NCBI GenBank assembly: GCA_021845985.1
Contig: JAJZES010000033.1
Location: 62,001-126,000, forward strand
Direction: 5' to 3'
Source: Pseudomonadota bacterium
Lineage (GTDB): Bacteria; Pseudomonadota; Alphaproteobacteria; Acetobacterales; Acetobacteraceae
DNA: 64,000 nucleotides
Shown here: positions 58,442 through 61,835 of the stretch, piece by piece
Numbering within the stretch: the first letter of the stretch is position 1
Layout: each line of letters opens with the position of its first letter
Program-made: the position numbers and the translations under genes
The notes under the pieces: model-generated
What the model was told of the DNA's origin: nothing
Database searches by the model: none
What the model saw: the letters and a program-made list of their open reading frames with translations, nothing else

Positions 58442-58699
58442 GTGCATGCCGTGAAGACCGTCAACGTCCATGAGGCGAAGACCACCCTTTCCGCGCTGCT
58501 CGCGCTGGTCGAACAGGGCGAGGAGGTGGTGATCGCGCGCAATGGCGAACCGGTGGCCAGGCTCAGCCGCTATCATCCGGCACAGCCGCGCCAGCCGGGC
58601 GCATTGCGGCGCCTGCCGGGATGGGAGAGCTTCCGCTATGACCCGGCGGTCTTCGCCCCGCTGAGCGATCAGGAGATCGCCGACGAGGGGTGGCTGTGA
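58442..58699 (+). CDS. Phd/YefM-type antitoxin
   Basis: 85 aa from GTG 58442; GTG 58451 is possible and gives the cleaner family start MKTVNVHEAKT. The N-terminal half TVNVHEAKTTLSALLALVEQG with VVIARNGEPVARL is the Phd/YefM DNA-binding fold. The C-terminal tail FRYDPAVFAPLSDQEIADEG would wrap the toxin. It overlaps the PIN toxin gene by 4 nt (GTGA). Confidence 0.9.
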   Translation: MHAVKTVNVHEAKTTLSALLALVEQGEEVVIARNGEPVARLSRYHPAQPRQPGALRRLPGWESFRYDPAVFAPLSDQEIADEGWL

Positions 58700-59082
58700 G
58701 CGACGGCTGCCTCGCCGACGCCTGCGCGATCATCGCCTTCTTCGCCGATGGCGGCGCCAGCATGACCGAAACCGGCATCGCCGCCATGCAACGTGACGTG
58801 GCAATCTCGCCGATCACCGTCTGGGAACTGGCCCGAAAAGCGTCCATCGGCAAGCTGCCGCCGTTGCCGACCGTGGCTGGCAGTTTTACCCGCTGGCTCG
58901 CCGAACAAGGGTTCCGCCTTCAACCGCTGACATGGGCAGACACCGAACGCGCCACTGCGCTGCCGCCGATCCACAAAGACCCGATGGATCGCATGCTGAT
59001 CGCACAGGCGTTGAACGCGGCCATGCCGGTGATTACCGAGGATGGGCTGTATCGGCAGTACGGCGTGACGACGGTGTGGTGA
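58696..59082 (+). CDS. PIN-domain toxin (VapC-like)
   Basis: 128 aa. PIN nuclease acids are visible: Asp in CLADACAIIAFF, Glu in ITVWELARK, Asp pair in KDPMDRMLIAQAL and Asp in ITEDGLY. PIN toxins cleave tRNA or rRNA when freed from the antitoxin. The start is GTG 58696 at the antitoxin overlap. It belongs to the Phd-linked PIN group. The pair stands 58 nt left of the tRNA-derived attachment site, just outside the island. Confidence 0.9.
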   Translation: MSDGCLADACAIIAFFADGGASMTETGIAAMQRDVAISPITVWELARKASIGKLPPLPTVAGSFTRWLAEQGFRLQPLTWADTERATALPPIHKDPMDRMLIAQALNAAMPVITEDGLYRQYGVTTVW

Positions 59083-59140
59083 TCCCCGCCGACGTGCCGC
59101 ACGCGCCTTTCGCCGATCCGCATTTCCTTCTGGAAATGCT

Positions 59141-59190
59141 TGGCGTTCCCGGCGGGATTCGAACCCACGGCCCCAGGATTAGGAATCCTG
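59141..59190 (-). other. 3' half of tRNA-Arg(CCT): attL core
   Basis: On the minus strand 59190-59141 reads as an anticodon stem-loop CAGGATTCCTAATCCTG (anticodon CCT), a 5-nt variable loop, a T arm with GGTTCGAATCCC, an acceptor 3' strand and CCA. No D arm or 5' acceptor strand with the right pairing lies to the right (59191-59240). The gene is therefore incomplete, as expected of the duplicated attachment core left at the integrase end. Confidence 0.8.
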
Positions 59191-59380
59191 TAGTCAGGCA
59201 TTTCCGGGGCAGTCCGGCACCGTTCCGAACCATCCCGTAGCGTCCGAATAACCCAGCAATTCCGCTTGCTTTCCGCCCGCATCCCCGCGAGGATACCGGC
59301 CGGGATGGCCCGGGTCGGTTCGGTTGTGTTGAAGCCCCGCTGCATCCCCAGTGAAGCCCCGAGCGGGTGCCGAGGTCGGG

Positions 59381-60598
59381 ATGCCGGTGCGGTTGACTGA
59401 TACGGCGATTGCCAAGGCGGCGCGTGAAGCCGCCGACCTCGGGGTGCGGCGCGAGATGGCCGATGCCCAGTGTCCGGGCCTGCGCATCCGCTGCTCCCCG
59501 GCCGGCCTCCGGACATGGGCGCTGGCGTGCCGTGACGGTGCCGGCCGCATGCGCCGCTTCGTGCTGGGGCAGTATCCGGTGCTGGGCATCGCTGAAGCCC
59601 GCGATGAAGCCCGCACGCTACTCCATAGAGTGAAGCAGGGGGGTGCTGACCCGGTTGCGGACAAGCGCCGGGTGCGCGCCGAGGCCGAGGCGGCAAAGGC
59701 CGGGGTGGGCACGCTGGCGGCGGTTCTGGACGCATACGGCGCCAAGGCCGGCGCGAACCTCAAAAGCTGGCCGGCAAGCCGCAAACGGGTCGAACTGGTG
59801 TTCGCCGCGCTGCTGCGCCGGCCGGTGGCGACGGTGACGGTGGGGGACATGCAGATGGCCGCCGATGGCTACCCCTCGGCCATGTCGGCGGCGTTCGCGG
59901 TGCGGACCATCCGGCCGGCGCTGCGCTGGGCGGCGGCGCCAGGGCGAGGCTACGTCCCCGCCGACCTCGCCAGTGTCCGGCCCCCAGTTGGCGCGACGCG
60001 GCGCAAGCGGGTGCTGGCGCGCGAGGAACTGGCCACCATCCTGCCCGTGCTGCGCGCCAGCACCCGGCCCTACGCCGCCGCCATGCTGTTCATGCTGATG
60101 ACGCTGGCGCGGCGCGAGGAAGTCGGGCGCGCGCGCTGGCGCGACGTGAGCCTGACCGGCGCGACATGGACCATCCCCGTCACCAAGAACGGCGAGCCGC
60201 ATGTTGTGCCGCTGCCCCGGCAAGCCGTCGCGCTGCTGCAAGCGATCCGCCCGGCACGCGCCAAGCCGGCTGACCTGATCTTCTGCACCGCGACCGGGGC
60301 GGCGCTGCTGAACTGGGATCGCGAGACGAAGGCGATCCAGGCCGCGAGCGGCACGGATGGCTGGCACCGTCACGACCTCCGCCGGACGGGCGCGACCATG
60401 CTGGGCGAGATGGGCGAGTTGCCCGACATCATTGAGGCGGCGTTGAACCACGTTGCCATCCGCTCGGCGCTGGCCGCCACCTACAACCGCGCGCGGTATC
60501 GCCCAGCCGTGGCGGCGGCGCTGCAACGCCTTGCAGACGCCCTCGACGGCATCGCGGCCGGCGGCGCCGAAATCCCCCCCCTGCATCGCCCAGCATAG
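59381..60598 (+). CDS. int: P4-type tyrosine integrase
   Basis: 405 aa from ATG 59381 with GAGG upstream; GTG 59351 is an alternative. The N-terminal DUF4102-like arm-binding domain starts RLTDTAIAKAAREAADLGVR. The catalytic domain has Arg in ARREEVGRARW (about 240-250), Lys in TKNGEPHVVPLP, HDLRRTGATML (His-x-x-Arg, about 330) and the nucleophile Tyr in AATYNRARY (about 369). It integrates the element at tRNA-Arg and lies 190 nt inside attL. Confidence 0.92.
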   Translation: MPVRLTDTAIAKAAREAADLGVRREMADAQCPGLRIRCSPAGLRTWALACRDGAGRMRRFVLGQYPVLGIAEARDEARTLLHRVKQGGADPVADKRRVRAEAEAAKAGVGTLAAVLDAYGAKAGANLKSWPASRKRVELVFAALLRRPVATVTVGDMQMAADGYPSAMSAAFAVRTIRPALRWAAAPGRGYVPADLASVRPPVGATRRKRVLAREELATILPVLRASTRPYAAAMLFMLMTLARREEVGRARWRDVSLTGATWTIPVTKNGEPHVVPLPRQAVALLQAIRPARAKPADLIFCTATGAALLNWDRETKAIQAASGTDGWHRHDLRRTGATMLGEMGELPDIIEAALNHVAIRSALAATYNRARYRPAVAAALQRLADALDGIAAGGAEIPPLHRPA

Positions 60599-60945
60599 GC
60601 CGCGCAGCGCCATGCCTCTGTGTGTATATCTAACCATTCTATGGAAATTTCCCTCTACGGCTAAAAGGCATAGGGACCATAGGGGGCATAGGTTTTGAAC
60701 CGAGTAGTGCCAATTGGTTACGAGGCGTTTTACCCCCCCTATGCCCCGTTCGTTGCATTTTGGAGCATAGGGACCATAGGGGGGGTAAGAGGCAAAATCC
60801 CGCTCGCGCCGCCTTTGCTGGGCGAACGTAGCGGGATTGCGACGGGTTTGACTTACTAACTGCGCCGGCCGGTTGCCGGGAATGGGGGGCCGGGCGCGCG
60901 CTGGAACGCCGCCCGGCTGGTCCCCGCCGACATGGAGTGAGCACG
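60599..60945. other. 347-nt interval holding the repeat cluster
   Basis: No gene. Markedly more A/T-rich at 60615-60770 than its surroundings. It contains the CATAGG repeats at 60669-60780. The rest (60790-60930) shows nothing recognisable. Confidence 0.6.
60669..60780 (+). repeat. CATAGG iteron-like repeat cluster
   Basis: CATAGG occurs at 60669, 60678, 60687, 60766 and 60775, and inverted (CCTATG) at 60738. Spacing inside each group is exactly 9 bp. The unit GCATAGGGACCATAGGGGG is repeated at 60668 and 60765. Placement between integrase and primase suggests a replication origin or a control site; this is an inference. Confidence 0.75.
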
Positions 60946-61554
60946 ATGGACGGGAACAAGGGCGGTTCTACCACGGGCGGGGCCTTTACGCCCATCTCGC
61001 CCGCCGAACTCGCGGCCTGGTTCGGGGAGGCCGGTGCGAAGGGGCGGCGGCTTCCGACCGAAGCCGACGTGCGCGGCTTGGCGGATTCGGTGAACCTTCA
61101 CATTCGGATAGTTGTCGGGCCGCCGCTGGTTCGCCACGCGGCAGAACTGGTTGCGGCAAACCGCCATGTGCGCGCGGCGCTGCCGCACTTGAAAAAAGCG
61201 CACGCCGAACTGGCCGCCGCCTTCGCGATCATAGACGCGATTCCCGATCCCGAGGCGCCCGCCTTGCTCCCCGAGATGCGCGCGCTGTTGCAGGCGGCGG
61301 GCGAGGTTTTGCAGGAACACCCGCCGGCCGGTCGGGGGCAACCCGAACGTCACTGGGATATGACAGCCCGGATGTTCGCGCCGGACGTGCAGAAAGTGAT
61401 GCGCGCCAACGGGCGGGCAAACGCATCGGTCAGTCACGACAATGCTGTTGGCACCTACGTAGTCTCGAAGATCGTCCACCGCATCACGGGCGAAAATGTC
61501 GATCGAGCGACGGTCGCGCGCGTACTCCGAAGCCATGAAAATGCTGGCGAGTAA
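60946..61554 (+). CDS. hypothetical island protein, 202 aa
   Basis: ATG 60946 with GGAG nine bases upstream; a GTG at 60937 lies inside that site and is rejected. Helical, Ala-rich, without membrane segments or a known motif. SPAELAAWFGEAGAKGRRLPT opens it, and the C-terminal part (YVVSKIVHRITGENVDRATVARVLRSH, here cut to VDRATVARVLRSH) looks like a helix-turn-helix-like pair. I do not recognise the family. Base composition is less GC-rich than the chromosome genes. It could be a regulator or a replication accessory. Confidence 0.65.
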   Translation: MDGNKGGSTTGGAFTPISPAELAAWFGEAGAKGRRLPTEADVRGLADSVNLHIRIVVGPPLVRHAAELVAANRHVRAALPHLKKAHAELAAAFAIIDAIPDPEAPALLPEMRALLQAAGEVLQEHPPAGRGQPERHWDMTARMFAPDVQKVMRANGRANASVSHDNAVGTYVVSKIVHRITGENVDRATVARVLRSHENAGE

Positions 61555-61574: not shown

Positions 61575-61631
61575 TTGTTCCGACCCCGCAATACACCGAT
61601 GTTCGCAGCAGTGACTGAACGGAGCCGGCCA

Positions 61632-61835
61632 ATGCCTTCCGACCACCCTGTGCCTATCGCCTTTTCGATCAAAGCTGCCGTCGAAGCGACCGGCGGCGCC
61701 GTGTCTCGGACAAAGATGTTCGAGTTAATCGCGACGCGCGCCATCGACGCCCGCAAGTCCGGCCGCCGCACGATGATCCTCGCCGATTCGCTGCGGCGCT
61801 ACGTCGAGTCGCTGCCGCCTGCCCGTGCCGCCTGA
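61632..61835 (+). CDS. AlpA/excisionase-like helix-turn-helix protein
   Basis: 67 aa from ATG 61632, with GGAG seven bases upstream. The pattern FSIKAAVEATGGAVSRTKMF followed by ELIATRAIDARKSGRRT and LRRYVESLP is the MerR-like HTH_17 / AlpA fold. Such proteins regulate excision or integrase expression in P4-type elements. It has a small insert in the turn compared with the common form. The ATG chosen gives a standard length. Confidence 0.75.
   Translation: MPSDHPVPIAFSIKAAVEATGGAVSRTKMFELIATRAIDARKSGRRTMILADSLRRYVESLPPARAA

Follow-up and report, generated by a model that had tools for sequence, protein, structure and literature searches.

The presence of a tight group of CATAGG hexamers between an integrase gene and a primase gene raises the question of which process these repeats serve and which protein recognizes them. 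The initial annotation had described six copies, five direct and one inverted, in two blocks with exact 9-bp steps, and their positions were confirmed in the window, that is, the whole stretch of 64,000 nucleotides that was analysed (Table 1). The described 19-bp repeat was likewise found (the 19-mer at 60668-60686 returns 97 bp further on, at 60765-60783), and the local A/T content is indeed raised, with 48% AT at 60600-60800 versus 29% in the whole window and a GC content down to 47-55% in 60-bp steps at the array. The window contains 30 copies of CATAGG, versus 8.5 +/- 2.8 in shuffled sequences, and the probability of at least six copies within 112 bp, with the other 24 copies as background, is about 7e-12, a value uncorrected for position and word choice. 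Thirteen other hexamers also reach at least six copies within 125 bp, but each of them occurs 184-788 times in the window, versus 30 times for CATAGG. The clustering of CATAGG is not due to chance. A further copy at 60594, within the last part of the integrase gene, does not share the phase of the array.

The repeats belong to an island of 9,477 bp that is integrated in tRNA-Arg(CCT), and the window ends inside it. The gene order is attL, integrase, left array, the gene for the 205-aa protein, the weak HTH gene, a 72-aa gene and the primase-helicase gene, followed by the genes for an RHH protein, several small proteins, a DUF5681 protein and a ParB-like protein (PHROG 3264, 4.1e-9), by hicB/hicA on the other strand, by a right array and by the tRNA gene. 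No capsid or terminase families were detected in the island ORFs scanned, among which the small ORFs were covered in part. The island thus has the PICI trait of an integrase, tRNA/att integration and no structural genes. A 164-aa ORF at L008:8320-8814 is similar to a portion of longer proteins from enterobacterial phages, whose annotations disagree (NUDIX, glycosyl transferase, TolA), and this ORF and DUF5681 are also present in a related island (L158). Just outside attL, at 58442-59082, the window contains a Phd/YefM antitoxin and PIN toxin pair.

Table 1. Features of the island and its left array. Positions refer to the window unless L008 is given (L008 coordinates = window coordinates minus 57000).
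Feature	Position	Strand	Remarks
attL, 54-bp exact direct repeat of the 3' part of tRNA-Arg(CCT)	59138..59191 (L008:2138)		
Tyrosine integrase	59351..60598	+	PF00589 Phage_integrase 5.7e-16, PF13356 Arm-DNA-bind_3 4.1e-14
Outer trimer of CATAGG iterons in the left array	60669..60692 (starts 60669, 60678, 60687)	+	9-bp steps
AT-raised spacer, candidate melting region	60693..60732		57.5% AT
Inner inverted iteron	60738..60743	-	divergent pair with 60766, 28 bp start to start
Two iterons within the repeated 19-mer	60766..60780 (starts 60766, 60775)	+	9-bp step
205-aa protein, first gene past the left array	60937..61554	+	no family above chance
86-aa weak HTH_17 protein	61575..61835	+	E 0.0087, below Pfam's cut-off
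Primase-helicase, 807 aa	62165..64000, continues past the window (L008:5165-7588)	+	PHROG DNA primase families
HicA-like toxin and HicB-like antitoxin	L008:10595-11326		HicA PF07927, 4.4e-9; HicB weak; beside the right array
Partner repeat of attL	L008:11615-11668		within the intact tRNA gene, past the window edge

The earlier description of the repeats was correct but gave half the picture: a second, inverted array lay past the window edge, at L008:11307-11441 (68307-68441 in the window frame), 7.7 kb from the left one. It contains a perfect, inverted 26-bp match to 60667-60692, and the outer trimer of the left array reappears inverted at L008:11416-11439. Read from the outer end, the left array has copies at +0, +9, +18, -69, +97 and +106 and the right array at +0, +9, +18, -78, +105 and +127 (minus signs denoting inverted copies), and thus both arrays share one plan. 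When 361 bp around the left array were used as DNA query, the matches were these two arrays only, and the query was absent from four other genomes of the genus. Scattering of the repeat over unrelated chromosomal places, which had been named beforehand as an argument against a role in the island, was not found in the host genome, as CATAGGNNNCATAGG occurs seven times, five times in the two arrays and twice as lone dimers elsewhere.

Most probably, to judge from the sequence comparisons described below, the CATAGG array constitutes the iterons of the replication origin of this tRNA-Arg-integrated island, and they would be docked by the C-terminal domain of the primase-helicase. The initial annotation had suggested a search for the same repeat beside related primase genes, and it does recur there in many genomes. 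With the primase as query, 47 of 200 family genomes had a match. A 14-row alignment (A1) of the last ~504 primase residues, which includes some loci found via the DNA pattern and leaves out L094 (internal stop) and L095, matched 68 of 397 family genomes at 1e-30. Regions were taken for the best matches, the loci were sorted by the reach of the primase match along the profile, and the ~470 nt that follow the primase match were scored for arrays, defined as at least three CATAGG inside 130 bp. Arrays by the 3' end of the primase gene were present in 13 of the 19 loci that match the profile to its end, versus none of the 27 sister loci that match only to about position 450 (Fisher 2.7e-7, a value that is descriptive because the loci are related). 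CATAGG ranked first among all hexamers (13 and 0), and most of the next-ranked words overlap it. One of the sisters, L246, has three scattered CATAGG inside the ORF and no array. Six fragmentary loci (L160, L164, L172, L236, L237, L257) were kept out of these counts; the degenerate relatives among them (L160, L164, L172, L236 and L237) are also devoid of arrays.

A CATAGG cluster somewhere in the fetched DNA was found in 15 of the 19 full-profile loci. The six that lack a primase-adjacent array are L008 and L158, which have arrays at the island ends, L156 with two copies only, and L230, L232 and L233. In the genomes of L230 and L233 (G738, G282) CATAGGGNNCATAGGG occurs nowhere, and in G720, the third genome, it is found on other contigs. 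For L230, L232 and L233, a search for exact repeats past the 3' end of the primase gene revealed no recognizable origin. In another island, the coding sequence of the primase itself contains a CATAGG trimer (L154:5685-5708, peptide PMVPMMPM). Across the class, alignment A1 found matches in 4 of 385 genomes, one of which is the host genome of the island. Among plasmids and phages, the primase protein found distant matches only, of less than 60% identity and none covering 80%. The single protein had no match among viral contigs; with alignment A1 five viral loci were found, three with arrays and two (L193, L195) without.

The reverse approach, which starts from the DNA pattern, led to the same enzyme. 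One genome per species was scanned for CATAGGGNNCATAGGGNNCATAGG, which gave 84 stretches, 80 of them listed and 19 alphaproteobacterial by title. Among the 80 listed, the primase is encoded in 12 of the 19 alphaproteobacterial stretches and in none of the 61 others. In one of the alphaproteobacterial stretches (L040) only the last primase residues lie at the stretch edge, in three more (L048, L077, L078) a related integrase adjoins the array, and four (L074, L088, L090, L118) have neither gene; L040 and L077 share a contig, as do L078 and L098. Long 9-bp tandem CATAGG runs without a primase were seen in Lentisphaeria, Bacteroidota and Gemmatimonadetes (L049, L053, L066, L083, L101, L102, L108), and these runs in unrelated phyla look like simple tandem repeats. 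In viral contigs the pattern gave 14 stretches, two of them with the primase, both on contigs also found by protein. Of 299 family genomes, 6 contain the strict trimer, and the control gave no matches; the primase is encoded in five of these, and in the sixth (G241, the L048 contig) the array follows an integrase gene near the contig end. The loose pattern CATAGGNNNCATAGG occurs in 205 of the 299, with much lower values in the control columns, and is not specific by itself because many matches are lone dimers in varied contexts. Well away from the islands, too, CATAGGNNNCATAGG is more frequent than its reversed control, in many cases in the form of isolated dimers, for example CATAGGCGGCATAGG. 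On the evidence of these sequence searches, CATAGG arrays accompany primase-helicases with this type of C-terminal domain across genomes of the family.

This association bears on two rival functions. The first is that of an operator array, through which the 86-aa HTH protein, the RHH protein, HicB or the 205-aa protein would repress the replication operon and hicAB. Its appeal lies in the positions of the arrays, the left one upstream of the gene at 60937 and the right one directly before hicA, which is read from the minus strand. However, among 23 array-bearing relatives homologues were counted once for the HTH protein and never for the 205-aa protein, the RHH protein, the ParB-like protein, HicB or HicA, whereas the C-terminal domain of the primase is present in all 23 (17 found via the primase, 6 via the DNA pattern). 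Furthermore, a scan for sigma-70-like promoters, which does not cover all promoter types, and a terminator scan found neither element at either array. An operator function is therefore very improbable: the initial annotation had proposed an iteron origin or a repressor array, and the origin tied to the replication protein of the island stands with the recurrence of the repeats beside related primases, whereas the repressor half is not supported, given the near lack of homologues of the other DNA-binding candidates. The second rival, a site at which a helper phage would package the island or the ParB-like protein would partition it, would suit an island that encodes such a protein and a phage-related ORF, but the ParB-like protein is missing in all 23 relatives and the arrays follow the primase, which makes this the least credible of the functions considered.

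PHROG assigns the primase-helicase to DNA primase, while Pfam and NCBIfam gave no match. A structure model of the last 504 residues (pLDDT 87) retrieved poxvirus D5/E5, ASFV primpol and PriRep1 with Foldseek at E values of about 1e-5. The top VIA match was the SaPI5 primase-helicase (7ola_D; Z 13.2, 309 residues, rmsd 5.3; second Z 12.8), with which the poxvirus D5/E5 enzymes tie. As modelled, the protein has the hexameric helicase fold of the D5/SaPI5-Rep group. The C-terminal 110 residues are predicted as helices followed by two strands, an arrangement compatible with a winged helix; the domain alone gave no confident fold (best Foldseek E 0.35, best VIA Z 6.5).

The sister primases, which share the helicase part alone, offer a comparison of the repeats themselves. 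Several of them bear different repeats just past the stop codon, again with 9-bp steps and in inverted pairs about 100 bp apart, for example, TAAAGGT (L243), AAGGCAC (L238), AAACCCC (L240), CCCCGCA (L259) and AACCCAC (L254). These were displayed for 12 loci picked for having repeats, of which L248 is without a clear array and L258 has mostly steps of about 21 bp. Strict inverted pairs of direct repeats with spacing 9 were found in 6 of the 19 full-profile loci and 7 of the 27 sisters; the corresponding numbers were 2 and 2 for spacing 10, 1 and 4 for spacing 18, and 0 and 1 for spacing 8, with none at other spacings within 6-30. In the controls, 50 shuffles gave no spacing-9 pairs, and ORF interiors gave no pairs at all. 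Between the two groups, divergence of the protein is greatest in the C-terminal domain, with a median identity of 0.17 versus 0.37 for the helicase core, and this domain is less conserved than the helicase also inside each group (0.44 versus 0.62 in the first, 0.36 versus 0.52 in the second). Thus, a different C-terminal domain comes with a different repeat, whereas the 9-bp ruler is kept. It is very probable that the replication enzyme of the island docks on its short repeats. In six sister loci (L238, L240, L251, L254, L256, L259) a TGTCAG...CTGACA-type inverted repeat lies between the inverted iteron sets 3' of the primase, possibly a second candidate binding site.

Taken together, the following course of events is proposed. 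The integrase would excise the island as a circle, the D5/SaPI5-Rep-like primase-helicase would dock on the 9-bp-spaced CATAGGGNN via its C-terminal domain, winged-helix-like in the model, the nearby AT-raised DNA would be opened, and the helicase ring would be loaded and replication primed. The origin would here consist of two similar inverted arrays, the first past the integrase gene and the second close to the tRNA, in contrast to a single compact array directly behind the primase gene.

Neither array of the island is located 3' of the primase, the left one lying 1.5 kb upstream and the right one 3.8 kb downstream of it. Among 28 loci examined, eight have compact convergent array sets, an order that is not universal because the sets of L114 and L153 are divergent; divergent iteron pairs 24-28 bp apart were present in 8 of 15 array-bearing loci counted. 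The left trimer has no convergent second trimer within 260 bp, and a convergent trimer is found 7.7 kb away. Arrays at both island ends were observed here as well as in G033:C70 (L157) and G153 (L158), and in all three islands about 150-200 bp separate the right array from the tRNA gene. In G225 one array adjoins the primase, and two more are found near an integrase at a distance of about 20 kb; these likely belong to one island with the opposite-end layout. In L008, L157, G225 (L077) and G241/L048 an array follows the integrase gene. This proximity to integrase and tRNA genes, together with the arm-binding domain of the integrase, would also suit arm-type sites that help to build the excision/integration complex. 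However, about 1.5 kb lie between attL and the left array, which exceeds the usual distance of arm sites, only 4 of the 23 array-bearing loci have a tblastn match to the island integrase by the array, and the compact arrays adjoin the primase, so that we give this function as little credence as the operator.

For the replication origin, the two separated arrays could represent two origins, an origin together with an accessory site, the situation in P4, or the halves of a single origin between which the island body lies. In the split-origin case, the sets that are adjacent in compact relatives sit at opposite ends and would come to lie ~1.7 kb apart only after circularization, around attP and the integrase gene, in this island, G033:C70, G153 and likely G225; this joint reading is tentative and rather unlikely. 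If it were true, origin assembly would be coupled to excision, and the island would not fire while integrated. The split layout is a direct test case for a link between replication and excision.

The wider importance of the arrays lies in what they mark, a widespread and apparently undescribed group of alphaproteobacterial islands with a replicon of its own. One helicase frame and varied C-terminal domains paired with varied 9-bp-spaced iterons form a natural data set, and such pairing would allow the recognition code between initiator and iteron to be worked out.

Several known systems are similar in part. According to passages of PMC7581432, the C-terminal domains of SaPI Rep and SCCmec Cch2 recognize iterons downstream of their own genes, in the case of Cch2 three short direct repeats, and a passage of PMC6092414 describes PICI origins as two iteron sets around an AT-rich region, besides mentioning the alpha protein and its cognate site. 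The island resembles SaPI/PICI in being integrated, in its tyrosine integrase, in a primase-helicase with the SaPI5 enzyme as top VIA match and in short iterons, which in many relatives lie directly 3' of the primase, in some loci as two convergent sets. In the left array, a trimer is followed by an AT-raised spacer and by one inverted and two direct copies. The island differs in the iteron, CATAGGGNN, in its alphaproteobacterial hosts, in a primase without Pfam match and in arrays 7.7 kb apart at opposite ends; an origin immediately 3' of the initiator gene is absent here and present in 13 of the 19 related loci. A further difference is that no packaging gene was recognized among the island ORFs scanned. 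The binding of three direct repeats by a C-terminal domain, as described for Cch2, would be a shared feature, whereas the repeat and the element are different, and Cch2 has no fused primase and one site instead of two. The alpha protein of phage P4 is a primase-helicase with two separate cis sites (ori and crr) that contain the same short repeats. P4 is thus similar in its two separate repeat sites, a comparison of layout only, and differs in island layout and iterons. In the literature searched, no title had CATAGG iterons as its subject. The iteron, the family and the layout with arrays at opposite island ends are apparently new.
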